Source of the DNA: Clostridiaceae bacterium
GTDB taxonomy: Bacteria; Bacillota; Clostridia; Acetivibrionales; DUMB01
Reading direction: 5' to 3'
Length of the DNA stretch: 64,000 bases
Assembly: GCA_012840085.1 (NCBI GenBank)
Contig: DUMB01000081.1
Location: forward strand, 1-64,000
This document shows, piece by piece, positions 26,257 through 56,022 of this stretch. Position 1 is the first letter of the stretch; every line of letters begins with the position of its first letter. Both the position numbers and the translations under genes were made by a program. The notes below the pieces were generated by a model. It made no database searches, had not been told where the DNA came from, and worked only from the letters and a program-made list of their open reading frames with translations.

Positions 26257-26285
26257 TGAACGCCCTCCTAAAGCAAATAATTAAT

Positions 26286-28082: not shown

Positions 28083-28132
28083 TGCTTTCCCCCTAAACAG
28101 ATAAATTATTTTCCCCTCAAATTATAAACTTC

Positions 28133-28963: not shown

Positions 28964-28964
28964 T

Positions 28965-29858: not shown

Positions 29859-29941
29859 CCTGTTCCTTTCGCTCCATGTTTTATTTTTAGAGGGAAAGGC
29901 ATTGTAAACTTCACCTTCCCCCTGCAATGACCCAATAGTTG

Positions 29942-38875: not shown

Positions 38876-40711
38876 TTAACTCAGATTTCCGAAATATACT
38901 GCACCGACAGCCTGAGCGAACTGCGCCACCGTATATTCAGGGTTAGCCTTCAACTGCTTCATAAGGGAAGTGTTTGCCATCCCGGAATCTGCAACATCGA
39001 GCACGATACCCTCTCTTATTTCGTTTGCGCCTTCTTTTATCAATTCAAAGCATCTCTTGTTTGCCACAAGTCCACCGAAAAGCACACGCCTTGCTGTTCC
39101 TGGATTGAGAATTTCTTCAGTTTCTATCCAGGTTACAGCTAAAAATGCACCTATGTCTTTCCAGATTCTTTTATTGGCTTCATCGTTTTCTCTCTCAACC
39201 AAATCCATCATATGCTTAAGAAATGGCTTTCTCATATCCTCAGGTTCAGTAGGTACATAATAACCTGTATGCCCATCCACTTCCTTTTCAATCACGAAAC
39301 CTTTATTAAACAGCTCCTGGTAAAGATCCGGCCTCTTTCTCGGAAAATACTTCATTGCAAGCCGGAAAATGCCGCTCTGGCTGCAGTATTTCTGCAGTGT
39401 TCCCGGAAGTTCGGTATTAAAATTGTTTATGCTTCTTAAATCATCGGAAGGATATTGCTTTTCAACAAAGCTTCCAAGGTCAATGATGAAATTGTACACC
39501 TCAAGAGGGATATCCGGAATTATTCCGTCCCCGTTAATCCAGCCGGTTCCCAATTCAGTTCCAAGGGTATGTGCGAATATACCATCAGCAACTAATTCAG
39601 AGGAACCTGCCGCAACATTTTCTACTGCTGCAGTAAAGGCAGCCATTGAACCGTCGTTTATAATATTCACGGACCCGTCTTTCTTGATATACTTACGAAG
39701 TATGTCATTTAAGTTTGTAAGTTTCAAGAAGTCTTTTTCATAATCGATATTGGGGTTATTTCGTATACCCCTTGTCTTATATACTTCGCCTCCGACAATC
39801 TTATTTTTTACAACCACATCAGGAAATGTCAAACCTATCGCATCTATCTCCACATATCTGCCATTAAGAAAAGCTTCTGCTTTTTCTACTGCGTCAAACA
39901 TATAATCATTACTTGCGTTCTTATCCAGTGCCTTATTTATGTCCCTTATTAATTCATTTTTAGCATCAGAGGCAATATTTAGACTTTCAAGTGATACTTT
40001 GGCTCTCATAAGTCTAACTATGAGACAGATTGGTTCTATTAACTGCCTTGTTTCCCTGAATCCGGCAGGAAACCAGTTATATTCCTTACAGCTGTCTATT
40101 TTGCCACCTTTTACTAGAACAGTTTTAATAACTGTTCCTCCCACATCAATTCCGCATATGATCTTTCCGCCAAGGTTTTCCGTAGCCTTTTTGAATATGC
40201 CTAGATCCCGGTTCTTTTCCCTTCCTTCAGTATCGATTTTATTAATTACCGGCATTTCAGAGATGTCCAGGATATTGAATCTGAAACCTGGTGCATCAGC
40301 ACATAGGGCACTCAACATTCGGTCTATTACATTAACAGCCCTGCCATATCCCCGCCTGTCGGAACGCTTGCTGTCTACATAAAATACCTGGTTTAATTCT
40401 GTTGCCAGTTCAGTAAGTGAAGAATTACTCTTGTCTATATAGATATTCATTTCCTTTCCGCCAAGGCTGGAAAGTATATTATATATTTTAGCCCAAACGT
40501 AGCTTTTAACAAAGTTGATTTCTTCGGTGCCAAGGCCATTAAGAATCGGCAGGCATATTTTGAAAAGCCGCTTTTCGTCGTTTTCTAAAAGCGTAAGCAC
40601 ACAATTCATTAGCTGTTTTTCAGTTTCCTCAAGGTTTTCGAAGGCTTCGGAAACAGTGCTTATAAACACCGGTTCTCCCGCTTTGGCGGATTGTAGAAAT
40701 TTCTTTATCAT
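38876..40711 (-). CDS. ASKHA-fold (ROK/BadF-like) protein of the glycyl radical operon
   Basis: A 611-aa protein. The first ~180 residues are unfamiliar. From about residue 188 it shows the phosphate-1 loop of actin-like ATPases and sugar kinases (IICGIDVGGTVIKTVLVKGG), then a phosphate-2-like SVNIINDGSMAAFTAAVEN, then HTLGTELGTGWI and the adenosine-side VLFGGLVANKRCF. It is probably a kinase for the imported compound or an ATPase reactivating a radical enzyme. Its ATG overlaps the stop of the activase by four bases, so it is coupled to the activase. The substrate cannot be told from sequence. Confidence 0.7.
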   Translation of the reverse strand: MIKKFLQSAKAGEPVFISTVSEAFENLEETEKQLMNCVLTLLENDEKRLFKICLPILNGLGTEEINFVKSYVWAKIYNILSSLGGKEMNIYIDKSNSSLTELATELNQVFYVDSKRSDRRGYGRAVNVIDRMLSALCADAPGFRFNILDISEMPVINKIDTEGREKNRDLGIFKKATENLGGKIICGIDVGGTVIKTVLVKGGKIDSCKEYNWFPAGFRETRQLIEPICLIVRLMRAKVSLESLNIASDAKNELIRDINKALDKNASNDYMFDAVEKAEAFLNGRYVEIDAIGLTFPDVVVKNKIVGGEVYKTRGIRNNPNIDYEKDFLKLTNLNDILRKYIKKDGSVNIINDGSMAAFTAAVENVAAGSSELVADGIFAHTLGTELGTGWINGDGIIPDIPLEVYNFIIDLGSFVEKQYPSDDLRSINNFNTELPGTLQKYCSQSGIFRLAMKYFPRKRPDLYQELFNKGFVIEKEVDGHTGYYVPTEPEDMRKPFLKHMMDLVERENDEANKRIWKDIGAFLAVTWIETEEILNPGTARRVLFGGLVANKRCFELIKEGANEIREGIVLDVADSGMANTSLMKQLKANPEYTVAQFAQAVGAVYFGNLS

Positions 40712-41631
40712 TGCTTCACCTTTTTTTCTCTTGCTATTTTTACACCTTTATCTGAAATTATCTGGTACAGCGCATCCAGTTCCGGCTCCGGCAGCGGCTT
40801 TATACCCTTTAGCAGCTCATTGGCTTTTCCCATGAGCCTGTATTTGTTTTCGCCAAGGGGATTATAATTCATGAGTTCTATAGGTATTTTATTATTTACT
40901 TCATAGACAAATGATGCAATTTCACCAATATTCTCTTTTGTTGCAGTAATGCCGGGTACCAGGGGAATCCTCACCAAAATGTTTTCTTTTTTTGAAGCCA
41001 AAAACTCAAAATTTGACTTTATAAGTTCGTTTTCCACACCGGTATATTTCTTATGGTTGGCTGAGTTGAAAACTTTTAAATCAACAATGAACAAGTCCAC
41101 ATAGTCAAAAAATTTTTCAAAGATTTCTTTTTTAGCGTACATACAAGTTTCAATTGCTGTGTGTATGCTATGCTTTTTACACTCCATTAAAATTCCTAAT
41201 GCAAATTCATGCTGAAATAGTGGGTCTCCACCTGAAATGGTTATACCTCCGCCAGACTTATCATAAAATGGCTTATCTTCTAAAAGTACATCTATCACTT
41301 CCCTTTGGGAAACTCTTTTCCCATCAAAGCATAGAGCTGCAGTGGGACATGCCTCTACACAGTTGCCCTCATTAATGCATTTTTCCCTGTCAATCACAAT
41401 ATGAGGGCTTGCACTACCTATAGACAATGCACTGTTTTTACAGGCTGCAACGCACCTATGACAACCTATGCATTTTTTTTCGAAATACCACAGATTGATT
41501 TTGCTGTCAATACCTTCCGGATTATGGCACCAGATACAACTCAAGGGACAACCCTTCAGAAAAACCGTGCTTCTGATTCCTGGTCCGTCATGAATCGCAA
41601 ATTTTTTAATATCTATAATATTCCCATACAT
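40708..41631 (-). CDS. Glycyl radical enzyme activase 1 (radical SAM)
   Basis: A 307-aa radical SAM protein that installs the glycyl radical on the enzyme encoded directly upstream. The SAM cluster is CPLSCIWC (Cys28, 32, 35). A ferredoxin-like insert follows: first site Cys54, 57, 60, 64 (complete), second site Cys85, 91, 95 with Glu88 where the second Cys normally stands (CINEGNC). GGGITISGGDPLFQ is the SAM-binding GGE-like motif. The insert is typical of activases for dehydratase-type glycyl radical enzymes and absent from PflA. Its start overlaps the enzyme's stop. Confidence 0.94.
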   Translation of the reverse strand: MYGNIIDIKKFAIHDGPGIRSTVFLKGCPLSCIWCHNPEGIDSKINLWYFEKKCIGCHRCVAACKNSALSIGSASPHIVIDREKCINEGNCVEACPTAALCFDGKRVSQREVIDVLLEDKPFYDKSGGGITISGGDPLFQHEFALGILMECKKHSIHTAIETCMYAKKEIFEKFFDYVDLFIVDLKVFNSANHKKYTGVENELIKSNFEFLASKKENILVRIPLVPGITATKENIGEIASFVYEVNNKIPIELMNYNPLGENKYRLMGKANELLKGIKPLPEPELDALYQIISDKGVKIAREKKVKQ

Positions 41632-44006
41632 CAGATATCTCCATAGCTTGTTCTTTCAATGATTTCATCCTGGAGGTCGCTGGCAAGTTCGGTGAAGTAT
41701 GCCGTATAACCTGCTACTCTGACAGTAAGCCCTCTATATTGTTCTGGCTTCTGTTTTGCCTTGAGCAGGTCTTCCCTCCTCACTACGTTGAATTGGACGT
41801 GGTTTATCCTAAGATCCACAAACGTCATAAGCAGGGATGAAAACTTTTTGATCCCTTCTTCAGTCTTGAAAAAGTCAGGAAGGAACTTCATGTTGAGTAA
41901 AGTGCCGTTACTGCCGTACATGGAATTTATCCTTGAGACTGATTTCAAAAGTGCTGTCGGCCCGTTCCGATCCCTTCCATACATTGCTGACATGCCGCCA
42001 TCTGCAAGAGGATCCCTAGATAGCCTTCCGTCCGGAGAAGCCCCAACATTGTGTCCCATGGGTATGTGTGCAGAAACGGTATAAAGCCCTGTATGGTACG
42101 GACCACCCCTGGCATTTCTGTAATCTTTCAATTTCTCAGCAAAGTACTCAATCCATTTGGCACCTATATTATCAACCCATGCAACATCATTGCCGTACTT
42201 TGGAACTTTATTTATGAGGTATTGCCTCAATTCTTCACTGCCTTCATAGTTTGTCTGAAGTGCCTTTAATAGTTCCTCAGCCTTAAGGGTACCCTCGTCA
42301 TAAACCAGCTTTTTGATAACAGCCAGACTGTCTGCTATATTTGCCACCTGGATGGCCTGTATTCCTGATAAATTGTAGTGAGCACCGCCAGCAGTGACGT
42401 CAATGCCTTTTTCCAGACAATCGTCAATAACGCTGGAAAGGAAAGGTGTCGGCAGGAATTCGGCATGCATCCTGTCAACAGCGTCACAAACTGCAATCAT
42501 CCTGTCTATAAAGTGGTCAAGCTGTTTTTTATATGCTTCCTCAAGGTCCTCATAAGACTTATAGTCAGTCAGATAACCTGTTTGCAGACCCATCTGGACA
42601 CCTGTCTGAAGACAGATACCATTGTTAAGGGTCAGCTCCAGCACTTTGACAAGGTTGAACATGGCAGCATCGCTCCAGCCAAGGTTGTTTCCATGGGTGG
42701 TAAGCTCGACACATCCAACTATGGCATAATTAGTAGCATCCTCTTTGCTTATACCTTGATTTATTAGAGCCGGAATTATGCTTTCATCATTAAAGATCTG
42801 AGGCATCCCGCTACCCATTCCTATAACCCTGCTACACTGGTCGACAAACTCACTGGATGAACCCTTGAACAATCTGGCAGATAGATTTGGCTGAGGAAGC
42901 AGCAAGTGTTCCTGCGCTTTTAGGAACAGGAAGGACAACTCATTCGAGGCATCCCTGCCATCTTGAGTTTGGCCGCCGCAGGCAATATTAAATCCTATGG
43001 GGAAGCCGGCAAAGTATTTTGCGCTGTTAGAATTTCTTAAATACACTATCTGGTTAAACTTAAGCCATAAAGCTTCAATTATCTCCAACGCACCGGAAAG
43101 ATCCAACTTTCCGCTTTCAATGTCCCTTTTAAAATATGGGTACAGATACTGATCAGCTCTTCCAGGCGAAAAGGAGGAGGCATTTGATTCCATTTGCAAA
43201 ATGACAAATAAGAACCATAATGACTGAACTGCCTCCCGGAATGTCTCTGGCGGATTATCGGCAAGCTTTGCGCATATTCTTTCAATTTCTATAAGATTCT
43301 CCCTCAGTCTGCCGTCAGAGACTTCCACAAGCATCTTTTTTGCGAGCTTGCTATACCTTCTCATAAAATCCTGCGCAGCAGAAAGCACAATAATTACACT
43401 TTCATAGAAAACCTTTTTATCATCTGAGGCCATCTTAAGTTTTTCTTCAGCTTCCTTTTTCAATCCTGCCGGCCCTATTGCCAGCCATTTTTGCGTATTG
43501 GGGCAAATATGCCCTTGGGCATGGTCTGTCTGATTGATTTTTACTACTTTGCCAATAGCGGATATTTCTGCCCCTAGCCTGTCTTTTACTGCATCTTCGA
43601 GAGACTTTCCTTTCCAATATGGAAGAATAGTTTTCCTAAATTCTTCGATATCTTCTTTTCTGACATTGAACTGATCCTGTGGCCTTTCATGAAGAGTTTC
43701 AATCTCACGGTCAATCCATGAAATACCCGCTTCGGGTGAAACCACACCCGCTCTCACGCCAGGTGTACGGTTTCCTACTATCAACTCCAATGGATCAATC
43801 CTTATCTCTATCTTGTTAAGTGCCAACGAAAGACTCTTAGCTCTTCGAAGAATGCGAGGAAGATTCTCATTTTCCTTATAACACTGAGTTATAAGTAGTG
43901 CCTGTTCCAGGGATAGAAACCTTGGCTCGCTAAGCATTCTTTCCTTTAGCAGGGATATCCTATGGCTTATTTGTAATTTTGAAATCTCTTCGATATAGTT
44001 TGCCAT
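41631..44006 (-). CDS. Glycyl radical enzyme 1, dehydratase-like
   Basis: A 791-aa member of the PFL2/glycerol-dehydratase group. The radical Gly is 766 in VRVAGY; the thiyl Cys is 432, with Glu434 two residues on (GCVE). Compared with glycerol dehydratase from memory, His166 (QGHI) and Asp446 (GWSDAAMF) are kept, so a 1,2-elimination on a hydroxylated substrate is plausible. The double Cys of pyruvate formate-lyase is missing. The substrate is unknown: the rest of the pocket (ELTTHGNN) differs from glycerol, choline and hydroxyproline enzymes as I recall them. It lies 67 bp after the permease pair and overlaps its own activase, so it probably acts on the imported compound. Confidence 0.93.
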   Translation of the reverse strand: MANYIEEISKLQISHRISLLKERMLSEPRFLSLEQALLITQCYKENENLPRILRRAKSLSLALNKIEIRIDPLELIVGNRTPGVRAGVVSPEAGISWIDREIETLHERPQDQFNVRKEDIEEFRKTILPYWKGKSLEDAVKDRLGAEISAIGKVVKINQTDHAQGHICPNTQKWLAIGPAGLKKEAEEKLKMASDDKKVFYESVIIVLSAAQDFMRRYSKLAKKMLVEVSDGRLRENLIEIERICAKLADNPPETFREAVQSLWFLFVILQMESNASSFSPGRADQYLYPYFKRDIESGKLDLSGALEIIEALWLKFNQIVYLRNSNSAKYFAGFPIGFNIACGGQTQDGRDASNELSFLFLKAQEHLLLPQPNLSARLFKGSSSEFVDQCSRVIGMGSGMPQIFNDESIIPALINQGISKEDATNYAIVGCVELTTHGNNLGWSDAAMFNLVKVLELTLNNGICLQTGVQMGLQTGYLTDYKSYEDLEEAYKKQLDHFIDRMIAVCDAVDRMHAEFLPTPFLSSVIDDCLEKGIDVTAGGAHYNLSGIQAIQVANIADSLAVIKKLVYDEGTLKAEELLKALQTNYEGSEELRQYLINKVPKYGNDVAWVDNIGAKWIEYFAEKLKDYRNARGGPYHTGLYTVSAHIPMGHNVGASPDGRLSRDPLADGGMSAMYGRDRNGPTALLKSVSRINSMYGSNGTLLNMKFLPDFFKTEEGIKKFSSLLMTFVDLRINHVQFNVVRREDLLKAKQKPEQYRGLTVRVAGYTAYFTELASDLQDEIIERTSYGDI

Positions 44007-44073: not shown

Positions 44074-45042
44074 TCATACAGTTTCACGCTTGCGTTTTCT
44101 GCCATAGCAGTCAAGACAGATAATGGCCACAATCACTATACCTTGTATAATCTGCTGAACATAGGCATCAATGCCAAGCATGTTCATAGAATTTTGAAGT
44201 ACGCCGAACACCAGCAGACCGATGGCTGACTGTGGTGCACTGCCGATACCGCCTGCGAAAGAAGTACCGCCTACCACTACACCGCAGTTGACCACAAGTG
44301 CAGTGGTATCACCGTATGTTGAGGATCCTGAATTCAGCATGGATGAAAGCATTACTCCACCCAGCGCAGCAGTAATACCACAGATTACAAAAGTCATCGC
44401 TTTTGTGGGAAGGACATTGATACCGGAATACTTAGCTACCTCGTAGTCACCGCCTATAGCATAGCAATTTCTGCCAAATGAAGTATAGCGCAAAATGTAA
44501 TGGATAATAAAGAACACAGCAATCATGACTATAACAAGATTAGGTATTATATTAAATAATTTGTCGTTGGCAAGTTTCACAAAATTTGGGTTATTACAAG
44601 GGATGGGATGTGCATCAGTTAACTGCTGGGCTATACCCGTGAGCATCATACCCATTCCCAATGTAATAATGAAAGGCTCTGTCCCCTGATATACGACTAA
44701 ATAACCGTTTATAGCGCCCACAATGGCACCGACAAGCAGCGCAGCCAATATGGAAATCCACATGGGAATATTGGCATTCATCAACTTGATTGTTACGATA
44801 CCCGACACAACCATAATGCCTCCAATGGACAGATCGCATCCTCCGGCCACGAGGACCAGCGTAACACCGAAAGCAAGGATCATAAGTATGGACACCGATT
44901 TTATCATATCGAACAGATTGTATGCTGTGTAAAAGTTGGTTTTTGAAAAAACCATAATCACCAAAATCACTATAATGGCCAAAACAGCCTTTTGCTTGGT
45001 TGCGATATTAAGAAGCTTTTTGCCAATGTTAATATTTTTCAT
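44074..45042 (-). CDS. Ribose-type (CUT2) ABC permease, second subunit
   Basis: A 322-aa RbsC-family permease with the signature GVTLVLVAGGCDLSIGGIMVV near residue 62 and the loop GGTSFAGGIGSAPQSAIGLLVFG near 272. It is paired with a second, different permease upstream, so the channel is probably a heterodimer rather than the usual RbsC homodimer. It is 12 bp downstream of that gene, with an AGGAGG-type site before its ATG. Its substrate is inferred to be the compound processed by the glycyl radical enzyme downstream. Confidence 0.94.
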   Translation of the reverse strand: MKNINIGKKLLNIATKQKAVLAIIVILVIMVFSKTNFYTAYNLFDMIKSVSILMILAFGVTLVLVAGGCDLSIGGIMVVSGIVTIKLMNANIPMWISILAALLVGAIVGAINGYLVVYQGTEPFIITLGMGMMLTGIAQQLTDAHPIPCNNPNFVKLANDKLFNIIPNLVIVMIAVFFIIHYILRYTSFGRNCYAIGGDYEVAKYSGINVLPTKAMTFVICGITAALGGVMLSSMLNSGSSTYGDTTALVVNCGVVVGGTSFAGGIGSAPQSAIGLLVFGVLQNSMNMLGIDAYVQQIIQGIVIVAIICLDCYGRKRKRETV

Positions 45043-45054
45043 CCCAGTTTCCTC

Positions 45055-46029
45055 CTAAAGTTGCTTGCGACTATCAAGCCAGATGGCAAGAACTAAGATA
45101 GCACCTTTCATCATGTATTGCATATAGACCGAAACACCCAGCAAATTCAAACAGTTAGACAGGAGTATGACCAGCGTGGTACCTAACACAGTACGCAGTA
45201 CGCTTCCATTCCCACCTATCAGTGTTGTACCACCGACAACTACCGCAAGAATAGCATTTGTTTCATAACCTTTACCGATAACCGGAGATGCGGCAGTCAC
45301 ACGTGAGAACAGTACAATGGCACCCAAAGCGGTCATCAAACCGGAAATCGTGTAAATTAAAGTTATGCTACGCCTAATATGTATTCCAGCAAGTTCTGCT
45401 GCAGTTTTATTACCACCTGTCAAATAAATAGTCCGTCCCATGTATGTTTTGTTTTGGAATATATACAACAACAGGAGGCAAACGAGAAACATGATGAAGG
45501 ACACAGAAAGGATTCCAACGGTTCCTGTACCTATCGTTTTATAAATGGAAGTATTTGCTTTTACCAAGCTCATTTGCTTCGTTCGCCCTCCGCTGTAAAT
45601 CAGCGCTAAAGCACCATATACCGTGCTCATACCATAGGTGATAAACAAAGCCTCAGCTTGCTTCATAGCTCCGCTGGCCAGTATCAGTACGCTGTTCAAA
45701 TATCCGCAAAAGGTTCCCAGGCATATGCCTACTATCAACGCACCTACCTGTCCAAGAGGTTCAATAAGAGAAATGGTTACAACAGCTACAAGGGAAAGTA
45801 TGCCTGATACTGACAGATCTATGAAACCGCCTATAATTACAAAGGTCATGCCAAGAGCAACCATGATTAAGGGGCCGAACTGACGCATAATATTTGTCAT
45901 ATTACCTGTTGTCAGGAATTTCGGTTCAACTATTGAGGTTATTATTACAAGTAAAGCGATCGCAGCCAAAACCAGATAATCTCTAAATACAGTCTGAATA
46001 ACGTTTTTGAAATTAATTTGCTCTTTCAT
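45055..46029 (-). CDS. Ribose-type (CUT2) ABC permease, first subunit
   Basis: A 324-aa permease of the same family, clearly different from its neighbour (GPLIMVALGMTFVIIGGFIDLSV, then AVVVGGTTLIGGNGSVLRTVLG). The ATG at 46029 with AAGGA eight bases upstream lies inside the end of the ATPase gene (17-bp overlap). A longer frame from 46056 lacks a ribosome binding site. It probably dimerises with the following permease. Confidence 0.93.
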   Translation of the reverse strand: MKEQINFKNVIQTVFRDYLVLAAIALLVIITSIVEPKFLTTGNMTNIMRQFGPLIMVALGMTFVIIGGFIDLSVSGILSLVAVVTISLIEPLGQVGALIVGICLGTFCGYLNSVLILASGAMKQAEALFITYGMSTVYGALALIYSGGRTKQMSLVKANTSIYKTIGTGTVGILSVSFIMFLVCLLLLYIFQNKTYMGRTIYLTGGNKTAAELAGIHIRRSITLIYTISGLMTALGAIVLFSRVTAASPVIGKGYETNAILAVVVGGTTLIGGNGSVLRTVLGTTLVILLSNCLNLLGVSVYMQYMMKGAILVLAIWLDSRKQL

Positions 46030-47530
46030 GTTCCAGATCCTTTCTGCCAAATTCAAGTGCCTTCTCCATTATCTGATCTGCCGAAGCCGTTTTAGGATCA
46101 AATTCGCCCGTTATTCGTCCGTCGCATATGGTAAGCACACGATTACTCATATTTAGAACTTCGGGTAGTTCGGAGGATATCAGTATAATAGATCCACCAC
46201 TTTCGGCAATCTTCTTCATTAAAAGGTATATCTCGTATTTAGCTCCTACGTCTATACCTCTTGTAGGTTCATCCAGAATAAGAATGCGCGGGTTCGTTTC
46301 CATCCAGCGTCCTACTATACACTTCTGCTGGTTGCCTCCTGAAAGGCTCCGAACCTTGGTCTTGACAGACGGGGTTTTAATCCCAAGCGCTTTAACATGT
46401 TTTTCGGCCATACCCCTTTCTGCCGAACTATCCAAAAATCCAAACCTCGTTATCTTGTCCAGGTTTGCCATAGAGATATTGGATTCCACCGTGAAGGGAA
46501 GCACAAGGCCCTGCAACTTTCGATCCTCCGGCACCAGGGCGATACCTGCCTTCTTTGCGTCTCTAGGATTCTTTATTTTGACGGGCTTTCCGTCTATAAG
46601 AATCTCATGGCCCTTTACCTTGTCCGCACCAAATATCGCTCTTACAATCTCAGTCCTTCCTGCTCCGACAAGCCCCACAAAACCAAGAATCTCTCCTTTT
46701 CTAAGTTTAAAGGATATATTGTGCAATTTTTTAGTATTGATTGATCGAACTTCCATTAGCGTTTCGCCTACGCAGTCAGGCCGTTCGGGATATTCATTTT
46801 CAATTGGACGGCCTACCATCTTCGCAATCATTTCAGCACGCGTAATTTCAGTAATAGGTTTGGTATCGATGACATGCCCGTCGCGCATGACAGTCACCAT
46901 ACTGCAAAACTCAAATATTTCGTCCAATTTATGGCTAATATATATAATGGAAATGCCTTGATCTTTTAGATGATGAATAATCTTGACCAGTTCCTTCATT
47001 TCATCAGCAGTCAGGCTGCTGCTTGGCTCATCCATGATAATGAGCTTGGAATCAAATGATAATGCCTTAGCGATCTCCACCATCTGTTTTTCAGAAACAC
47101 TAAGCTCGGAAACCAGCTTGTAAGTATCGATATTGCTGCCAATGCTTTTAAGCAACTCTTTCGCTTTTGCATGGACTCCGCGCATACCACCCATTTCACC
47201 GAAGCGCCCGAGAAAAATATTTTCGCCGACACTCATAGTATTTACAAGGTTTAATTCCTGATAGATGATGCTAAGACCTCTTTTCATAGACTGAATGGGC
47301 GTCGTGCTTTTAATGTCCTCACCGTCAAAAATAATAGTGCCTGAATCCTTCTGATACACGCCGGACAATATTTTCATCAGCGTCGATTTACCAGCGCCGT
47401 TTTCTCCTACTATACCATGCACAGTGCCACGCCGGACTTCAAGCGAAACTTGATCCAGAGCCTTGACTCCAGGAAAGGATTTGCACACATTTTTTATACT
47501 CAGAATAATATCCTGTCCAGTATTTTCCAT
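46013..47530 (-). CDS. Ribose-type (CUT2) ABC ATPase of the glycyl radical operon
   Basis: A 505-aa double ATPase. Domain 1: Walker A GENGAGKST, signature LSVSEKQMVEIAKALSF, Walker B LIIMDEPSSSL. Domain 2: degenerate Walker A GLVGAGRTE, signature LSGGNQQKCIVGRWM, Walker B ILILDEPTRGIDVG. It energises the two permeases. It resembles the ATPase at 15346-16869 in layout, but differs enough to be an independent system. The ATG follows a GAGG-type site. A 170-bp AT-repeat gap separates it from the binding-protein gene upstream. Confidence 0.94.
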   Translation of the reverse strand: MENTGQDIILSIKNVCKSFPGVKALDQVSLEVRRGTVHGIVGENGAGKSTLMKILSGVYQKDSGTIIFDGEDIKSTTPIQSMKRGLSIIYQELNLVNTMSVGENIFLGRFGEMGGMRGVHAKAKELLKSIGSNIDTYKLVSELSVSEKQMVEIAKALSFDSKLIIMDEPSSSLTADEMKELVKIIHHLKDQGISIIYISHKLDEIFEFCSMVTVMRDGHVIDTKPITEITRAEMIAKMVGRPIENEYPERPDCVGETLMEVRSINTKKLHNISFKLRKGEILGFVGLVGAGRTEIVRAIFGADKVKGHEILIDGKPVKIKNPRDAKKAGIALVPEDRKLQGLVLPFTVESNISMANLDKITRFGFLDSSAERGMAEKHVKALGIKTPSVKTKVRSLSGGNQQKCIVGRWMETNPRILILDEPTRGIDVGAKYEIYLLMKKIAESGGSIILISSELPEVLNMSNRVLTICDGRITGEFDPKTASADQIMEKALEFGRKDLEHERAN

Positions 47531-47704: not shown

Positions 47705-48733
47705 TTACCATTCTGGGGGAGTGAAACTGTCTATATTATCTATGTTAACTATATCGAGAGGAATAAAGTTCAAAGGTTCAACTTTTTCGCCATCAATAAC
47801 CTTTCTGGCTAGTTCAAGGGACTTTTTGGTCATGTTTTCAAAGTTCTGCATTATAGTTACACTCTGATCACCTTGCCTTACTTGTTCAAAACCAGCTCTG
47901 TTTCCGTCAACTCCTACTATGAACAAGCCTTCCATATTTGCAGCCTTTGCAGCCTGGATAACACCAGTCGCACCATTATCCCAGTGTACAAATACTCCCT
48001 GGATCTTATCGCCATGCTTGGTGATCATATCTTCCATAATAGCCATAGCTTGTTCTGTAGACCACTGCTGAGTTGCTTTATAGTCAATGACCTGAATCTT
48101 GGAATCCTTGATAGCATTGTTAAAGCCGTCATGACGTTTGATCTGCGCATCATGACCCGATTGTCCGCCTATCTCAACAATAGTTGCTCCATCGGGGAAG
48201 AAATCCATGAAAGCCTGCGCTGCAGCTTCACCAGCCTGATTATCATTTACGCCTACAAAGAAATCACGTGCACTCTGTTTATCAGCTGGCAAATCAGAAG
48301 AATACAATCCTACAACCACGCCGGCACTTTTTGCCGCCTCAAGAGCAGGAACGATAGCATTGATATCATTCGGGTTTACGAATAGGGCTTTTACACCCTG
48401 TGCGACTGCGTTGTTCACTGCCTGAGTTTCAGCCTGAACGTCGCCCTTCGCATCAAGGATTATGACTTCGAAGTTATAATCTTTGCCATACTTTTGGAAC
48501 ATTCTTGACGAAAAAGCTTGGGATTCATTGGCCATATCAGCAACGATAAAAGCAATTTTGTCCAGTCCTTTTCCTGAATCTGAAGATTTATCGGGTTTTT
48601 CAGCTGAATCATTTACCGCGGACTTTTCATTACCTTTCTCTTTATTCGGTGCGGTACCGCCACAAGCTGCTAAACTTATAAGCATAAAAACTGCCAACAA
48701 TATGGCCAAAATTTTCTTATTAGCTAATTTCAT
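47705..48733 (-). CDS. Ribose-type ABC substrate-binding lipoprotein of the glycyl radical operon
   Basis: A 342-aa lipoprotein with lipobox LAAC (Cys24), a short charged linker and a Peripla_BP_4 domain (KIAFIVADMANESQAFSSRM, ALFVNPNDINAIVPALEAA, GQSGHDAQIKRHDGFNNAI). It captures an unknown sugar-like compound. It is the first gene of the operon that carries two permeases, a glycyl radical enzyme, its activase and the ASKHA protein. GGGAGG precedes the ATG. It is divergent from the deoR gene with a 788-bp shared upstream region. Confidence 0.94.
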   Translation of the reverse strand: MKLANKKILAILLAVFMLISLAACGGTAPNKEKGNEKSAVNDSAEKPDKSSDSGKGLDKIAFIVADMANESQAFSSRMFQKYGKDYNFEVIILDAKGDVQAETQAVNNAVAQGVKALFVNPNDINAIVPALEAAKSAGVVVGLYSSDLPADKQSARDFFVGVNDNQAGEAAAQAFMDFFPDGATIVEIGGQSGHDAQIKRHDGFNNAIKDSKIQVIDYKATQQWSTEQAMAIMEDMITKHGDKIQGVFVHWDNGATGVIQAAKAANMEGLFIVGVDGNRAGFEQVRQGDQSVTIMQNFENMTKKSLELARKVIDGEKVEPLNFIPLDIVNIDNIDSFTPPEW

Positions 48734-49521: not shown

Positions 49522-50274
49522 ATGGGAGTTTTAAATGAAAGACAGTTAGCTATTTTGAATCGCGTGATTAGTTCGTCCAAGATAAATGTAGCTGATCTTT
49601 CAAAGGAGTTTTCCGTTTCACAAGTAACTATCCGCCAGGATTTAAAACTTCTTGAGCAAAACGGAATGCTTAAAAGGTTTCATGGCGGTGCAATGCCGGT
49701 TTCAGATGATGATATTATGAAGCGGCTATCAATTAACTATGATATCAAATTAAATATTGCTAGAAAAGCTGCTTCATTGGTAAGCAATGGAGAAACAGTC
49801 ATGATTGAATCCGGCTCCACTAATGCCCTTTTAGCAATGGAACTGGCAAATAAAAGTGATATTACTATCATAACAAATTCCACTTTCATCAGCAGATATG
49901 TAAGGGGAATGAGCAATCTTAAAATAATCATCCTGGGTGGTGATTATCAACATGAATCGGAAGTCCTTGTTGGACCTCTTACTAGAATTTGTTTGAAGCA
50001 ATTCCATGTGGACAAGGTATTCATAGGAGTCGACGGCTTCAGCCCAAATACCGGATTTACATGTATTAATCTTATGAGGGCTGAAGTTGCACGTGCGATG
50101 GCTGAGCGTGCCAATAAGGTAATAGTAGTCACAGACTCCACCAAATTTGATAAAGTAGGCGTAGCTTGTCAGTTTAAGCCCACTGAGACGCACATGGTAA
50201 TAACAGACAAGAATTTACCCGAAAAACATCTGCAGGTTCTTAAAAACTTTGGAATTGAAGTTGTACTGGTTTAA
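49522..50274 (+). CDS. DeoR-family transcriptional regulator
   Basis: A 250-aa regulator. The N-terminal winged helix-turn-helix reads NERQLAILNRVISSSKINVA, then DLSKEFSVSQVTIRQDLKLL, with the wing LKRFHGGA. The C-terminal DeoR sensor domain (about 75-240; FIGVDGFSPNTGFTC) normally binds a sugar phosphate. It starts the plus-strand operon, so it very probably controls this operon and the divergent transporter operon in response to a phosphorylated intermediate, perhaps the ROK kinase product. AGGAG lies seven bases before the ATG. Confidence 0.93.
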   Translation: MGVLNERQLAILNRVISSSKINVADLSKEFSVSQVTIRQDLKLLEQNGMLKRFHGGAMPVSDDDIMKRLSINYDIKLNIARKAASLVSNGETVMIESGSTNALLAMELANKSDITIITNSTFISRYVRGMSNLKIIILGGDYQHESEVLVGPLTRICLKQFHVDKVFIGVDGFSPNTGFTCINLMRAEVARAMAERANKVIVVTDSTKFDKVGVACQFKPTETHMVITDKNLPEKHLQVLKNFGIEVVLV

Positions 50275-50291
50275 TAATGAAAGGGGATAAA

Positions 50292-51248
50292 ATGATGGAA
50301 AAATACTTCATAGGGATAGATGTCGGCGGAACAAAGCTGGCATACGGCTTATTCGATAGGGCTTGTAATTTGATAGACAGGTTCAAAGCGAAAACCAATC
50401 CCGAACTGGAACCTGATGAAATGCTTGATGAAATGTGTACCCATATTGATACCCTATTGAAAAACAATTCTCTAAAAAGGTCAGACCTTATGGGGGTTGG
50501 AGCCGCTTTCCCTTCACATATAGATTATGACAACGGTTTTATCATCACCACCTCCAGCCTCCCCAAATGGGATAACGTTCCTGTTAAAAAACTGTTTTCA
50601 GAAAAGCTTGGCGTGACAGTGGAAATTGATAATGACGCAAACGTTGCAGCAATAGCAGAACATCTTTTTGGCGCCGGAAAAGGCAAAAAAGATATGCTTT
50701 ACATTACTATAAGCACAGGAATCGGCGGAGGCATAATAATTAACAATTCCATATACCGTGGTAGCTATGGTGCCGCCGGGGAATTCGGGCATATGATCAT
50801 CAGTGATGACGGTTATCTGTGTGGCTGCGGTAACAAAGGCTGCATAATGTCCCTTGCATCCGGTCCGAAGATAATCAGATATACAAGAGAAAAACTTGAA
50901 GAAGGCTGCCATAGTATCCTGTCGGCTATGGTTGAGAATTTGGATGACCTGACCTGCAAGCATATTCAGGATGCTGCCAATATCGGAGATCAGCTGGCCA
51001 TTGACGTTATCAATCGGACCGGTGATCTGCTCGGAATAATGTTTGCAAACCTTTATCAGATTTTCAATATCAATCATTTTGTTGTGGGTGGAGGCGTTTC
51101 AAAATTTGGCAAACCTCTCTTTGACAGGTTTAATGAAAAGTTCAGAAAGCTTTCAAAGATATCTTACGCCTATCCTGTAAATATCGTTCCTGCCGTACTG
51201 GGTGATGATGTTGGTATCATAGGTGCAGCAGCCCTGATGTTGCAGTAA
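50292..51248 (+). CDS. ROK-family sugar kinase
   Basis: A 318-aa kinase with the ATP loop FIGIDVGGTKLAYGLF, the active-site region VEIDNDANVAAIAEHLFG (catalytic Asp), and GAAGEFGHMII supplying the zinc His. The Cys cluster CGCGNKGCIMSLASG carries three zinc Cys but reads CIMS where most glucokinases read CLE, which may change sugar choice. It phosphorylates a hexose or related compound. AAGGGG precedes the chosen ATG; the frame from 50277 begins before that site. The 3' end carries a 20-bp tandem duplication of the last codons and stop (51235-51272). Confidence 0.92.
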   Translation: MMEKYFIGIDVGGTKLAYGLFDRACNLIDRFKAKTNPELEPDEMLDEMCTHIDTLLKNNSLKRSDLMGVGAAFPSHIDYDNGFIITTSSLPKWDNVPVKKLFSEKLGVTVEIDNDANVAAIAEHLFGAGKGKKDMLYITISTGIGGGIIINNSIYRGSYGAAGEFGHMIISDDGYLCGCGNKGCIMSLASGPKIIRYTREKLEEGCHSILSAMVENLDDLTCKHIQDAANIGDQLAIDVINRTGDLLGIMFANLYQIFNINHFVVGGGVSKFGKPLFDRFNEKFRKLSKISYAYPVNIVPAVLGDDVGIIGAAALMLQ

Positions 51249-51353: not shown

Positions 51354-52169
51354 ATGGCACAATCCTTTCCCGTACTATGCGGGTCAATTGCCGGCAGCAT
51401 AGGAGGAAACGGGGTCTTGATGCACAACGCAGCATACAAGGCCCTTGGCTTAAATTATTGCTATGTTTCCTTCCAGCCGGATAATCTAGAAGACACTATT
51501 AAGGGAGTCAGGGCAATGGGAATAAGAGGCCTCGGTGTCACAATGCCTTTCAAGCAGGAAGTAATTCAGTACCTTGATGAACTGGATGATTCCGCAAAAG
51601 CTATTGGCGCCGTAAACACCATCGTGAATAATAACGGTATTCTTAAAGGCTATAATACAGACTGGACAGGAGCTATAAGGTGCCTTGAGGAAACCGGAGA
51701 TATTTATGGCAAAAAAATTGTTGTTATAGGTGCTGGAGGAGCAGCCAGGGCAATTATCTATGGTTTAAAAAAATATACTGATGATATCCTGGTATATAAC
51801 ATCGAAGAGGATATCGGAAAGGAAGTATGCAATCATTTTGGTGTCAACTATGCAGGTGTTCCCGCTGACTTTAACAGAAGTGTAGATTATGACATATTAA
51901 TCAATGCTACATCTGTTGGTTTCAAGACTGAGGCCTCTGTTCTGACAGCAGAACAAATGCGGGAAAACAAAATTGTACTTGATGTTGTGTTTATGCCCTT
52001 TGAGACAACCTTCGTAAAGATTGCCAAAAGTCTTGGATGTACTGCTATTCCCGGCTATAGAATGTTAATTCATCAGGCCTGCTATCAGTTTGAACTCTAC
52101 ACAGGTGTTAAGGCTCCCTTTGAAGTGATGGAGAAAGCTATGCTCGATAAGGTGAAGGAATCAAAATAG
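51354..52169 (+). CDS. Shikimate dehydrogenase-like oxidoreductase with altered substrate site
   Basis: A 271-aa NAD(P)-dependent dehydrogenase of the AroE family. The catalytic Lys67 (GVTMPFK), Asn88 (GAVNTIV) and Asp103 (GYNTDW) are kept, and the nucleotide loop is VVIGAGGAARAI. The N-terminal substrate loop, normally 'SxSPxxHN' with two serines gripping the shikimate carboxylate, reads GSIGGNGVLMHN: one Ser position is Gly and three residues are inserted. It therefore probably oxidises or reduces a different cyclic or polyhydroxy compound. The operon context (ROK kinase, VOC, ABC, glycyl radical enzymes) argues for catabolism. Confidence 0.85.
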   Translation: MAQSFPVLCGSIAGSIGGNGVLMHNAAYKALGLNYCYVSFQPDNLEDTIKGVRAMGIRGLGVTMPFKQEVIQYLDELDDSAKAIGAVNTIVNNNGILKGYNTDWTGAIRCLEETGDIYGKKIVVIGAGGAARAIIYGLKKYTDDILVYNIEEDIGKEVCNHFGVNYAGVPADFNRSVDYDILINATSVGFKTEASVLTAEQMRENKIVLDVVFMPFETTFVKIAKSLGCTAIPGYRMLIHQACYQFELYTGVKAPFEVMEKAMLDKVKESK

Positions 52170-52192: not shown

Positions 52193-52606
52193 GTGATTCG
52201 CAGTGTTGCTCACATAGCATTCAATGTAAAGGATATCAAAAAATCTCTTCATTTTTATTGCGACATTCTTGGTTTGCAAATGGCTTTTGAAATGAAAGAT
52301 AAAAACGGCAATCCGTGGATTTATAATGTCAAAGTGGCAGAGGGCCAGTACCTTGAATTAATAGTGGGAGGAGTTCATGAGTATTCCTATAAGCCTGGCA
52401 ATGTTGGTTTCTCCCACCTTTCCCTGGAAGTCGAAGATATTAATGAAATTGCAGACAATTTAAGGGAAAACGGGATAACTATAGATGTTGAGCCTAAATT
52501 GGGAAGAGACATGAATTATCAGTGCTGGGCCAAAGACCCCGATGGGAACAGGATTGAATTCATGCAATTCTCCCCCTCTTCCCCTCAAGTCAAAGGACAT
52601 TGGTAA
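52193..52606 (+). CDS. VOC-superfamily (glyoxalase-like) metalloprotein
   Basis: A 137-aa protein of the vicinal oxygen chelate fold, with two beta-alpha-beta-beta-beta modules. All four metal ligands of the glyoxalase type appear: His in VAHIAFNV, Glu in YLELIVGG, His in GFSHLSLEV and Glu in RIEFMQF. It may be an epimerase, isomerase or glyoxalase acting on an intermediate. Oxygen-dependent dioxygenase chemistry is unlikely in an anaerobe. The GTG start at 52193 lies six bases after GGAGGG; an earlier GTG at 52169 overlaps the stop of the dehydrogenase and has no good site. Confidence 0.87.
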   Translation: MIRSVAHIAFNVKDIKKSLHFYCDILGLQMAFEMKDKNGNPWIYNVKVAEGQYLELIVGGVHEYSYKPGNVGFSHLSLEVEDINEIADNLRENGITIDVEPKLGRDMNYQCWAKDPDGNRIEFMQFSPSSPQVKGHW

Positions 52607-52721: not shown

Positions 52722-55127
52722 CTAGAGCGTATGCTCAGTTCTTGCAATAATATCATCCTGAGTGTCCGGAGACAGGTTGGTAAAGAAGGCTGAATATCCT
52801 GCTACTCTTACTATGAGATCACGGTACTTTTCAGGTTCTTTTTTAGCTGCAAGGAGAGTTTCTCTTGAAACAATGTTGTATTGCACATGCCAGCCTTTAA
52901 GATCTGCAAAAAAGGTTCTAAGCATGGCCATAAGTTTCCTCTTATCTGCTTCTTCCTTAATTACGGCTGGAGATAGCTTCTGATTCAGAAGTACACCACC
53001 CATGATTTTATCTGTAGGCAGCTTGGCAATTGATTTAAAAACTGCTGTCGGTCCCAGAATATCAGTGCCTGATGACGGTGAACAGCCTTCCGCCAGCGGA
53101 GTATAAGCCTTTCTGCCATCCGGGGTTGCTCCTACCACCGAACCTGAGGGAACGTTTGCCGATATGCTTGAGGTTCCTGCATAATAACCACAGCCAATAG
53201 GCCCTCTGCCAAAGCGTGTAGTATGGTATTTATCCATTTCTTCAATAAAATACATATATGCTTCCTTAAGGAGAAGGTCAACATAATCATCATCATTTCC
53301 GAATTTTGGAGCATAGTTTAATAATACTTGACGGAGTTTTTCTCCTTCTACTCCTTCAAAGTTATTCTCAAGATTCTTTGCCAATTCCTCTTTACTTATA
53401 CGTTTTTCTTCGAAGACCAGCTTCTTTATGGCAGCCAGAGAGTTGCCCAGATTTGCGATTCCTACCTGCAGACCGGATATAAAATCGTATTTGCTTCCGC
53501 CTTCCTTTATGAATTTACCTTTTTCAATGCAGTCATCGACAAAGGCTGAGCAAAGAATATCAGGTACGTTTTCTTCCAGCACCGTATCAACTACAGTGTC
53601 TATGGTTACCGCTGCTTTTGCATAGAACTTGACCTGGTCTTTCCATGCTTCCATCAACTGATCAAAGCTTTCAAAATCTACAAGTTTTCCTTTTCCCGGA
53701 TGAAATGTTTTTCCGCTCCCGGTATCAAGGCCATCATTCAAGGCAGCTAAAAGAACGCGTCCAAAATTAAGAAAGCTCATTCCGGTGCATCTGTAACCCC
53801 ATTTACCTGGTACTGCAATCTCAATACAGCCTATGGCTGAATAATTGTATGCGTCCTCTTTTTCAACACCCAGCTTTATCAGCCCGGGAATAACAATCTC
53901 GTCATTATTGAAAGCCGGCATTCCAAATCCCATTTCTATAACCTTTATACATTCCATCATGAAATGATCACTCATATTTTTGTGGAAGCGTACTGACAAA
54001 TTGGGCTGTGTTAGCCTGGTTTTTCCAACAGACCATAATATTAAATAGCTCAACTCATTGACTGCATCTCTGCCATCAACAGTCTGACCTCCGATAGTGA
54101 CATTCTGATACAGAGGGCCACCGGCTGAAAAACGTGTATGGGACCAGGAACGTACCTTCTTGACACCTAAAATTTTGATCCAGGTACACTCAAGAAGCTC
54201 CATAGCAAACTCCGGTGTGATGATCCCGGCTTTCAGATCTCTTTCATAAAAAGGATACAGATACTGGTCCATACGCCCAAAGGATAATGAATGTCCGTTA
54301 CTTTCTATCTGCAGCACCAGTTGGAGGAACAGAGTCATCTGCAGCGCTTGATAGAAAGTTTCAGGCGGTTTTTCAGCTATGTGCCCACAGTTTTTACTGA
54401 TAAGCAATAATTCCTGCCTGCGTGTTTCATCATTTTCCTTTTCAGCCAATTCCAGCGCTAATGCTTCATACCTGCGTATATATGTCTGAAGCGCCTTAAT
54501 GCCTATTTCAACAGATTTATAAAACTGTTCCTTTTTCAAGTCAGCCCAATCCCATAGCTTTAATTTGCTCCTGTAGAATTGGATTTCATCGAGATAAGCA
54601 TTTAAGCCCACCGTCAGGATTTTTTGATGGTTTACCGCAATGTGTCCGTCTCCAGAAGTTAGGTTTCCTTCAGCTTTAATAATTCCGGCGTCCAGAATTT
54701 CTTTTAATTCCTTGGGCATAAGGGCGTAGCCTTTGTCTATCGTAGTCTTTCCTATCCAATAAGGAGAAATTGCCCTTATTTCCGCTTTAATCTCTTCAGA
54801 TGGGTAAAAGGCATCTCCAGGACGCTTGTCTAACTCATCCAGTTCATCTAACATCCACGTCACTGAGTACTCCGGAAAAAAAGGTGCTGCATTTATTCTT
54901 GAAGACAGATTCCCAACAACCAATTCTCCGCGGTCAATATATATAGTCATCCTCTCCAGAGTTTCTTTTAGCGCAATAGCACGTTTTACTGGTACAGGGA
55001 AAGCCTCATACTTCTGGTAAACCTCAGTATATATCTTCGCTCTTTCAACACAAATGGTAGGTTTAGTAGACAATACCTTCTCCCTCAAATAATGGACTCT
55101 TTCAGATAAGCCAAGTTCATTTTTCAT
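52722..55127 (-). CDS. Glycyl radical enzyme 2, PFL2-type of unknown substrate
   Basis: An 801-aa glycyl radical enzyme. The radical Gly is 777 in VRVAGY; the thiyl Cys is 434, with Glu436 (GCIE). His162 (DGHI) and the ESNGHSLS serines are kept, but the region after the active Cys (IAVPGKWGYRCTGMSF) lacks the Asp of dehydratases and carries a conserved-looking RCTG instead. Its reaction thus probably differs from that of enzyme 1: perhaps another C-O or C-C cleavage. It lies downstream of its own activase, which ends four bases before its ATG. It converges with the AroE/VOC operon. Confidence 0.92.
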   Translation of the reverse strand: MKNELGLSERVHYLREKVLSTKPTICVERAKIYTEVYQKYEAFPVPVKRAIALKETLERMTIYIDRGELVVGNLSSRINAAPFFPEYSVTWMLDELDELDKRPGDAFYPSEEIKAEIRAISPYWIGKTTIDKGYALMPKELKEILDAGIIKAEGNLTSGDGHIAVNHQKILTVGLNAYLDEIQFYRSKLKLWDWADLKKEQFYKSVEIGIKALQTYIRRYEALALELAEKENDETRRQELLLISKNCGHIAEKPPETFYQALQMTLFLQLVLQIESNGHSLSFGRMDQYLYPFYERDLKAGIITPEFAMELLECTWIKILGVKKVRSWSHTRFSAGGPLYQNVTIGGQTVDGRDAVNELSYLILWSVGKTRLTQPNLSVRFHKNMSDHFMMECIKVIEMGFGMPAFNNDEIVIPGLIKLGVEKEDAYNYSAIGCIEIAVPGKWGYRCTGMSFLNFGRVLLAALNDGLDTGSGKTFHPGKGKLVDFESFDQLMEAWKDQVKFYAKAAVTIDTVVDTVLEENVPDILCSAFVDDCIEKGKFIKEGGSKYDFISGLQVGIANLGNSLAAIKKLVFEEKRISKEELAKNLENNFEGVEGEKLRQVLLNYAPKFGNDDDYVDLLLKEAYMYFIEEMDKYHTTRFGRGPIGCGYYAGTSSISANVPSGSVVGATPDGRKAYTPLAEGCSPSSGTDILGPTAVFKSIAKLPTDKIMGGVLLNQKLSPAVIKEEADKRKLMAMLRTFFADLKGWHVQYNIVSRETLLAAKKEPEKYRDLIVRVAGYSAFFTNLSPDTQDDIIARTEHTL

Positions 55128-55131
55128 TTAA

Positions 55132-56022
55132 CTATCCTCCTATTACAGTTTTTAACCCCTTATTATTTGCATACACTAAAAATGGCTCCAATTCACTTTT
55201 ATCCAATGCTTCTGTCCTGAGTTTATAGTCCCGCCCCAACTGCTGATATTTTCCTTTGCCAAAAGAATGGTACGGCAGCAGATGAAGTTCACTTATGTTA
55301 TTAAAAGAATCAAGATAGTCAATTATAGCGTGCATATCATCAGCGTTATGGTTAAATCCAGGTATGACGGGTATTCTAATTGTTACAGGAACCTTTTCTG
55401 CTTCCAGCTTTCTCAGATTATATTCAATCTGTGCAAAATTCCCACATGTCACTTCATTTAGTTTTTTGCCATTAACATGTTTTAAATCTATGAGAAATTC
55501 ATCTACATATTTAATGGCAACTTCAATATTTTCCCAGGGAACATCCAGGCAGGTTTCCACCGCTATTGAAATCCCCTTCTTCTTCAACTCTTTTGCCAGC
55601 ATAATCAGCTGTTCAGGCTGTGCAAAAGGTTCTCCTCCGGAAAATGTAACGCCCCCACCGCTGTTATCATAAAATACCCTTTCTTTTTCAAGCTCCTTTA
55701 CCAGCTTTTCAACATCAATTTCTTCCCCTATAACCTGAATTGCTTTTGCAGGACATATATCCTTAAAAAGTAAAGGATCCGTAATATTATCACGGTTTAT
55801 CGATATGCCTTCATCAGTCCTAATAAACTCTTTATTTCTTGATACCTTTACACATTCCATACAACCTATGCATTTTTGTTTATCAAAAAAAATGTCATAG
55901 TCAAAGCTTTGACTCTCCGGATTACTGCACCACGGGCATCTTAGAGGGCAACCCTTGAAAAAAACAATTGTCCTGATACCATTACCATCATGAGTAGAAA
56001 ATCTTTGCACATTAAATATCAT
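55132..56022 (-). CDS. Glycyl radical enzyme activase 2 (radical SAM)
   Basis: A 296-aa activase generating the radical on the enzyme encoded just downstream. The SAM cluster is CPLRCPWC (Cys25, 29, 32), and GGGVTFSGGEPF is the SAM motif. The ferredoxin insert is reduced: Cys51, 54, 57 and Cys90 remain, enough for one extra cluster, while the middle of the usual two-cluster insert is missing (CVKVSRNK replaces Cxxx C). This contrasts with activase 1. GAGG lies seven bases before the ATG. Three TTTCG motifs lie 45-70 bases upstream. Confidence 0.93.
   Translation of the reverse strand: MIFNVQRFSTHDGNGIRTIVFFKGCPLRCPWCSNPESQSFDYDIFFDKQKCIGCMECVKVSRNKEFIRTDEGISINRDNITDPLLFKDICPAKAIQVIGEEIDVEKLVKELEKERVFYDNSGGGVTFSGGEPFAQPEQLIMLAKELKKKGISIAVETCLDVPWENIEVAIKYVDEFLIDLKHVNGKKLNEVTCGNFAQIEYNLRKLEAEKVPVTIRIPVIPGFNHNADDMHAIIDYLDSFNNISELHLLPYHSFGKGKYQQLGRDYKLRTEALDKSELEPFLVYANNKGLKTVIGG

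Follow-up and report, generated by a model that had tools for sequence, protein, structure and literature searches.

The gene at the center of this analysis encodes an AroE-family protein, here called P0001, that family models would name shikimate dehydrogenase. Our leading reading, tentative and just short of probable, assigns P0001 to an anaerobic 1,5-anhydrohexitol catabolic locus and not to the shikimate pathway: it would be an oxidoreductase of the AroE fold that acts on a ring ketone/secondary alcohol, probably with NAD(H). That P0001 is a catabolic AroE paralogue with another substrate is a supported prediction, for which anhydrohexitol metabolism is the better-supported setting. If this is true, P0001 would give anaerobes a possible way to feed 1,5-anhydrofructose, which arises as a by-product when starch and glycogen are broken down, into the radical anhydrohexitol pathway that was described recently. 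It would also suggest a physiological role for a set of AroE paralogues that have, to our knowledge, no assigned substrate. Bacterial routes to and from 1,5-anhydroglucitol are of wider interest because two neutropenias are described in which its 6-phosphate, formed from this compound, builds up (PMC12441222).

The features of the window, meaning the whole 64,000-nucleotide stretch of DNA that was analyzed, are collected in Table 1. The DeoR, ROK, P0001, and VOC genes form one plus-strand run (the DeoR-ROK-P0001-VOC operon), with 105 bp separating the ROK gene from P0001 downstream of it and the VOC start read as GTG at 52193 after AAGGAGGG, the mechanical ORF starting at 52169. Divergent from this operon are the ABC transporter genes, followed by those for GRE1, its activase, and P611, and GRE2 is convergent with the P0001 operon and not part of it. 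The original prediction had named a ROK kinase, a VOC protein, and an ABC transporter as neighbors; all three are present, but the list was too short, since two glycyl-radical enzymes (GREs) with their activases, a DeoR-family regulator, and P611 are also found here. In PDB searches, GRE2 matched YbiW structures at 1040 bits, compared with 652 for the best glycerol dehydratase, and GRE1 matched PflD (8yjo) at 684 bits and glycerol dehydratase at 603. P611, for which neither Pfam (at 0.001) nor the PDB gave a match, is a possible second kinase. A VOC gene also lies beside GRE2 in Enterococcus, but it has only a 19-residue stretch in common with the window VOC, and no link between VOC and GRE2 is therefore proposed. 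At a second Clostridiaceae locus, discussed below, no VOC gene lies between the AroE-like gene and GRE2 (L003:3464-3729), and VOC is thus dispensable there.

Table 1. Features around the P0001 gene, numbered from the first nucleotide of the window, with the basis for each assignment
Feature	Position	Strand	Basis
P611, 611 aa, ASKHA/ROK-like motif IDVGGTVIKT	38876..40711	-	Conserved in G044, G261, G414
Radical-SAM activase of GRE1	40708..41631	-	PF04055 and Fer4 domains; 37.0% to YbiY, 29.5% to PflC
GRE1, PflD-like glycyl-radical enzyme	41631..44006	-	42.8% identical to E. coli PflD (781 positions)
Ribose-type ABC permease	44074..45042	-	Sequence and operon; 57-96% homologues in G044, G261, G414
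Ribose-type ABC permease	45055..46056	-	Sequence and operon; 54-94% homologues in G044, G261, G414
Sugar ABC transporter ATPase	46013..47530	-	Sequence; 70-96% homologues in G044, G261, G414
RbsB-type substrate-binding protein	47705..48733	-	Below every curated NCBIfam cut-off, hence no sugar named
DeoR-family regulator	49522..50274	+	PF00455 and PF08220 above cut-off; best NCBIfam YciT, 251.8 bits, below cut-off 450
ROK-family sugar kinase	50277..51248	+	PF00480 235.5 bits; TIGR00744 241.2 bits, below cut-off 260.35
P0001, AroE-family oxidoreductase, 271 aa	51354..52169	+	ORF call, family matches, catalytic K67/N88/D103
Rewritten substrate loop of P0001, codons of residues 10-24, GSIAGSIGGNGVLMH	51381..51425	+	Alignments
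VOC (glyoxalase-like) protein	52193..52606	+	PF00903 71.6 bits
GRE2, YbiW-like glycyl-radical enzyme	52722..55127	-	58.9% identical to E. coli YbiW (802 positions)
Radical-SAM activase of GRE2	55132..56022	-	TIGR02494 330 bits, above cut-off; 43.9% to YbiY

P0001 is a recognizable member of the AroE family. The Pfam domains Shikimate_dh_N (PF08501, 82.2 bits) and SDH_C (49.9 bits) were both above their cut-offs, PF01488 (21.8 bits) was just below its cut-off of 24.3, and TIGR00507 aroE (221.5 bits) exceeded its cut-off of 200.2, whereas NF001319 gave 251.7 bits against 252 and NF009202, the model of the SDH-L group, gave 211.5 bits against 306, which places P0001 short of the SDH-L score. The catalytic set of shikimate dehydrogenase is intact, K67, N88, and D103 being present as originally noted. 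Over the aligned parts, P0001 is 28% identical to AroE and 37.6% to YdiB. A 95% identical copy at locus L003, from another Clostridiaceae metagenome-assembled genome, differs from it with a dN of 0.023 and a dS of 0.392, and by this comparison the P0001 gene is under purifying selection. The structure model (pLDDT 89.3, falling to about 73 for residues 11-20) has an AroE-like fold, with VIA Z scores of 34.3 for 7cok, 33.3 for four AroE chains, and 31.1 for 1npy; Foldseek ranked 1nvt first and 1npy second. Fold comparison was set aside as a guide to substrate because nearly all rows shown have the AroE fold and lie close together. With regard to cofactor, residues R150, T151, and R154 of E. coli AroE are described as linked to NADPH (PMC7144000), and P0001 has I150, E151, and I154 at those positions. 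Because this Arg/Thr/Arg set is replaced by Ile/Glu/Ile, P0001 is predicted to be NAD(H)-dependent and is most probably NAD-linked.

The catalytic residues are retained, but the substrate loop, CGSIAGSIGGNGVLMHN, departs from the SxSP pattern. The earlier reading of this loop, a Gly in place of one Ser together with an insertion, needs correction on both counts: both SxSP serines are lost, being paired with N19 and G20 by MAFFT, and no insertion is present, given that phmmer aligns HI0607 without a gap through the loop and that P0001 has one residue fewer between the strand-end Gly and the conserved His than the AroE of the same genome (GLLGNPVEHSVSPQLH). The loop is identical in the L003 copy. 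It is not unique to P0001 in lacking SxSP, as HI0607 and relatives in Klebsiella, Paraburkholderia, and Caballeronia also lack it there. The SxSP serines bind the carboxylate of dehydroshikimate, a compound that presents a ring ketone beside a diol in addition to that carboxylate. We propose that the serines were lost because the substrate has no carboxylate, and that Lys, Asn, and Asp were retained because the ketone-plus-diol chemistry is unchanged; both are proposed for two lineages, as described below.

The genome that carries P0001, which is 97% complete, has a second AroE at C66 with the canonical loop HSVSP, and these two genes account for its PF08501 matches. In a first tree of 48 rows, in which the bootstrap had not settled, the canonical AroE paired with the AroE of G044, a genome that also carries parts of the cluster (100/99*), and P0001 grouped neither with biosynthetic AroE nor with YdiB. 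It and its L003 copy joined plasmid proteins of Paraburkholderia and Caballeronia (96/88*), and that group then joined six SDH-L rows (96/95*, unsettled bootstrap), P0001 being sister to these and not inside them. The same ten rows stayed together (90/82, no asterisk) in a second tree built without the N-terminal and loop columns and without three long rows; L095, L097-L099, and L103 are absent from both trees, and the second also omits L016, L017, and L025. Neither of the two findings that would have refuted the original prediction, a sole AroE in this genome or a grouping of P0001 with biosynthetic AroE, was obtained. The trees tentatively place P0001 as a sister of SDH-L, and by curated score it is not a member. 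Like SDH-L (HI0607, PDB 1npy, NF009202/PRK12550), it has no SxSP, a gap-free loop alignment, and the catalytic Lys and Asp at the same numbers, but it is only 34-38% identical, reads GSIGGNG where SDH-L reads GRPSNFG, and lies in a different gene neighborhood. Compared with biosynthetic AroE and YdiB, the fold and the catalytic Lys, Asn, and Asp are alike, and P0001 differs in lacking SxSP and in its separate branch.

Recurrence of the gene cluster in other genomes was examined by way of GRE2. A threshold of 1e-280 recovered it from 5 of the 391 class genomes, and one of 1e-240 from 10 of the 398 phylum genomes. Two genomes are shared by the samples, and with G044 added the set comprises 14 genomes, from which 24 stretches, containing 21 GRE2 genes besides that of the window, were screened by blastp against the window proteins. 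An AroE-family gene is present in the clusters of three of the 21 GRE2 stretches: L050 (G044), L070 (G261), and L071 (G414). G261 and G414 belong to families other than that of the source genome, and in them the AroE-family gene starts 27 and 48 bp, respectively, downstream of a co-directional gene for a transporter permease. GRE2 is encoded on that contig too, about 9 and 14 kb away, and the clusters contain both GREs, an ABC transporter, ROK, DeoR, and P611. In G044, the GRE1 operon is on contig C32 and the AroE-like gene on C166. GRE1, searched genome-wide in the source genome (G000), G044, G261, and G414, gave matches of 95% in G044, 64% in G261, and 78% in G414. Each of these four genomes has two PF08501 matches, one of them elsewhere with SxSP (an SLSP copy in G261 and G414), and the ten other GRE2 genomes have one in nine cases and three in G797, on contigs other than those of its GRE2 genes. 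The original prediction of a probable catabolic dehydrogenase acting on a new substrate is accordingly supported in its first part, since both the DeoR-ROK-P0001-VOC operon and the presence of an AroE-family gene in the G261 and G414 versions of the cluster argue for a catabolic role; the new substrate stays a prediction.

Of the remaining GRE2 stretches that were fetched, only those of G430 and G722 contain a GRE1-like protein (44-45%), and none contains P611. In G430 (L081) and G722 (L082), a 516/527-aa ORF with the appearance of an FGGY-type kinase lies between YbiW-like and PflD-like GREs, and this cluster variant adjoins ABC and ROK genes and an apparent ribulose-phosphate 3-epimerase, the names being read from sequence. 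P611 was considered as an exclusive pathway marker and rejected, as a class sample of 320 genomes contained eight others, seven from family f55 and one from f61, that have P611 with no GRE1, GRE2, or AroE-family gene in nine fetched stretches, three of which are shorter than 11 kb; these P611-only stretches therefore serve as a negative control for the AroE association. Overall, P611 homologues (L048, L070, L071, L072, and L131-L139) occur with GRE1 in four genomes and elsewhere without GREs, usually beside ROK.

The AroE-family genes of the G261 and G414 clusters are of a second lineage. They have also lost SxSP and read ENPGVVIQ, and together with an Agrobacterium gene they form a clade (100/99*); a profile of the three genes scored 344 bits against the 5-ketofructose reductase 7cok, compared with 243 for the next chain. 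P0001 reads GGNGV, without the [DE]NP loop motif of the 5-ketofructose reductase family, and sits in the SDH-L-side clade and not in the 5-ketofructose reductase clade, which is represented in the tree by relatives of 7cok and not by 7cok itself. A single clade of the G261 and G414 genes with P0001 and L003 was rejected (AU p 0.00038, for a group chosen after inspection of the tree), and the two arrivals of AroE-family enzymes in this cluster type therefore look independent. AroE-family enzymes thus seem, from these trees, to have entered the anhydrosugar cluster type twice. With 5-ketofructose reductase (PDB 7cok/7col; Tatumella KFR), P0001 shares the loss of SxSP and the AroE fold (the VIA Z of 7cok is tied with those of the AroE rows), but it differs in clade, in lacking the [DE]NP motif, and in having lost the NADPH-linked Arg/Thr/Arg. 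The Tatumella enzyme is described as using only NADPH and as reducing only 5-ketofructose among the compounds tested, a Clostridium pasteurianum shikimate dehydrogenase homologue did not reduce 5-ketofructose, and anhydrofructose is not named in that text (PMC7954740). Reduction of iminosugar precursors to iminosugar products has been reported for E. coli AroE and YdiB (PMC9881201).

The original prediction had suggested cyclitols and sugar acids as substrates, but the two neighboring GREs point to 1,5-anhydrohexitols instead. In E. coli, YbiW and PflD are described as cleaving 1,5-anhydroglucitol-6-phosphate and 1,5-anhydromannitol-6-phosphate to 1-deoxyfructose-6-phosphate after phosphorylation by a PTS (PMC12441222). 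The E. coli K-12 genes ybiW-ybiY adjoin fsaA, and pflDC lie with PTS (frw) genes, fsaB, and gldA. The window resembles this pathway in its YbiW-like and PflD-like GREs with activases and differs in having an ABC transporter and kinases in place of a PTS, in having no FSA gene, and in the addition of an AroE-family enzyme. In the pathway that we propose, the ribose-type ABC transporter would import a 1,5-anhydrohexitol or 1,5-anhydro-D-fructose, and P0001 would act on 1,5-anhydrofructose or its 6-phosphate, reducing the ring ketone to give 1,5-anhydroglucitol and/or 1,5-anhydromannitol. Alternatively, P0001 may run in reverse and interconvert 1,5-anhydroglucitol and 1,5-anhydromannitol. ROK and/or P611 would phosphorylate O6, the YbiW-like GRE2 and PflD-like GRE1 would open the ring, and DeoR may control the divergent operons. 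The substrate, cofactor, and direction assigned to P0001, like its sharing of a pathway with its neighbors, are predictions from sequence and gene order.

Several observations favor the proposed reduction of 1,5-anhydrofructose. In hand-drawn Fischer projections, 1,5-anhydro-D-fructose is 5-keto-D-fructopyranose (numbered from the other end) minus the C5 hydroxyl, and the ketone, the adjoining ring CH2-O, and the diol configuration coincide in the two sugars. The lineage found in G261 and G414 is that of 5-ketofructose reductase, an enzyme that reduces a ring keto sugar, and it also lacks SxSP; SDH-L relatives of P0001 lie beside sorE and fructose genes, and the iminosugar activity reported for AroE and YdiB likewise counts in favor. 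The reaction proposed here is that of a 1,5-anhydrofructose reductase known from Sinorhizobium morelense and of the mammalian enzymes AKR1E2/DHDH, as described in PMC12441222. The mammalian enzymes belong, judged by name, to protein families other than that of P0001. The S. morelense enzyme is presumably of the Gfo/Idh family. Among the papers listed in literature searches, we found none linking an AroE-family enzyme with anhydrosugars, and in the library searched "anhydrofructose reductase" and "shikimate dehydrogenase" never occurred together in one paper. Against the proposal, GRE1 is only 43% identical to PflD, 18 of the 21 GRE2 stretches are not in AroE-family clusters, and P0001 still scores above the TIGR00507 aroE cut-off. 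The convergent orientation of P0001 and GRE2, the separate contigs in G044, the position of P0001 outside the 5-ketofructose reductase clade, the narrow substrate range of the Tatumella enzyme, and the FSA result given below also weigh against it.

The gene contexts of the SDH-L group bear on a different reading, in which P0001 is an SDH-L-kind keto-sugar or sugar-acid oxidoreductase (for 5-ketofructose, a sorbose-like sugar, or a keto-gluconate) that is co-regulated with the anhydrohexitol genes and is not a step of their pathway. An SDH-L relative adjoins sorE in Klebsiella (L032:5983-6792) and another lies among fructose genes in Sphingobium, the contexts of other SDH-L relatives being uninformative. 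In E. coli, a DNA match to the SDH-L gene was found in 249 of 5426 genomes (174 of them with a match covering at least 80%), and the gene adjoins sorE in all five records listed for these 249 genomes, suggesting a possible role in sorbose use. The nearest relatives of P0001 (44-46%), in Caballeronia, stand beside an SDR gene, a D-glycerate dehydrogenase gene, and an MFS gene. These neighbors and the apparent sister position of P0001 to SDH-L would suit such an enzyme, but G261 and G414 also have an AroE-family gene in this type of cluster, which calls for a role there, and we regard this reading as improbable.

A further reading concerns the step after ring opening. No match to TIGR00875 or PF00923 (FSA/transaldolase) was found in the source genome, nor was PF00923 matched genome-wide in G261 or G414; G044 has one match (98.9 bits, in a 351-aa frame), and all ten other GRE2 genomes have a PF00923 match of at least 160 bits. 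With no FSA match, the E. coli route after ring opening is unavailable as such, and either another aldolase serves in this genome or the pathway differs after ring opening. An FSA-like gene is nearby in five of the 21 GRE2 stretches, and the AroE-family gene is in none of those five. P0001 might accordingly act downstream of the GREs in an FSA-free branch, for example on 1-deoxyfructose-6-phosphate or a fragment of it, and the mutual exclusion of AroE-carrying clusters and FSA in the 21 GRE2 stretches and 14 genomes speaks for this. However, that pattern ignores relatedness, and many clostridia may be without transaldolase for other reasons. Moreover, the AroE-fold enzymes considered here are known for substrates with a ring, 1-deoxyfructose-6-phosphate cannot form a pyranose because its O6 is phosphorylated, and its reduction would have no obvious productive product, so that we consider a downstream role distinctly improbable.

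A reading in which P0001 works as a dehydrogenase of shikimate or quinate, perhaps a catabolic one, is very unlikely in our view: it would fit the retained catalytic set, the TIGR00507 score, the identity to YdiB, and the weak oxidation of shikimate reportedly shown by HI0607, but neither SxSP serine remains, the genome has a canonical AroE besides, and in the tree P0001 stands apart from YdiB. Shikimate or quinate catabolism was thus rejected as the main reading, and, in agreement with the original prediction, no other aromatic-pathway gene was recognized among the listed ORFs of the window, on part of which family searches were run.

Returning to the reading of P0001 as an anhydrohexitol-pathway oxidoreductase, a broader hypothesis may be stated, although we think it unlikely to hold in full: the AroE fold would have been recruited at least twice, from SDH-L-like and 5-ketofructose reductase lineages, as 1,5-anhydrofructose reductases or anhydrohexitol-epimerizing dehydrogenases of an FSA-free glycyl-radical pathway, and SxSP-less "shikimate dehydrogenases" such as SDH-L would generally be misannotated keto-sugar reductases.

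P0001 itself is rare. It was found at the order level in 2 of 58 genomes at 1e-60, its own included; NF009202 matched 1 of 391 genomes of the class sample at 1e-55, namely the source genome; and a four-row profile matched 8 of 398 genomes of the phylum sample at 1e-62, the seven other genes scoring 213-221 bits, far weaker than the 531 of P0001. In a plasmid collection, 14 records matched at 1e-30, the best at 45.6%.

Two further features lie elsewhere in the window. The minus-strand region 23869-31279 encodes GH31 and GH13 enzymes followed by an apparent maltodextrin-type ABC transporter. GH31 glycosidases are described as making small amounts of 1,5-anhydrofructose (PMC12441222); the GH31 gene (23869-26256) lies about 25 kb from the P0001 locus, which may be coincidence. 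On the plus strand, a 753-aa ORF at 10612-12873 looks like a fusion between a LacI-type repressor and an ABC solute-binding protein.
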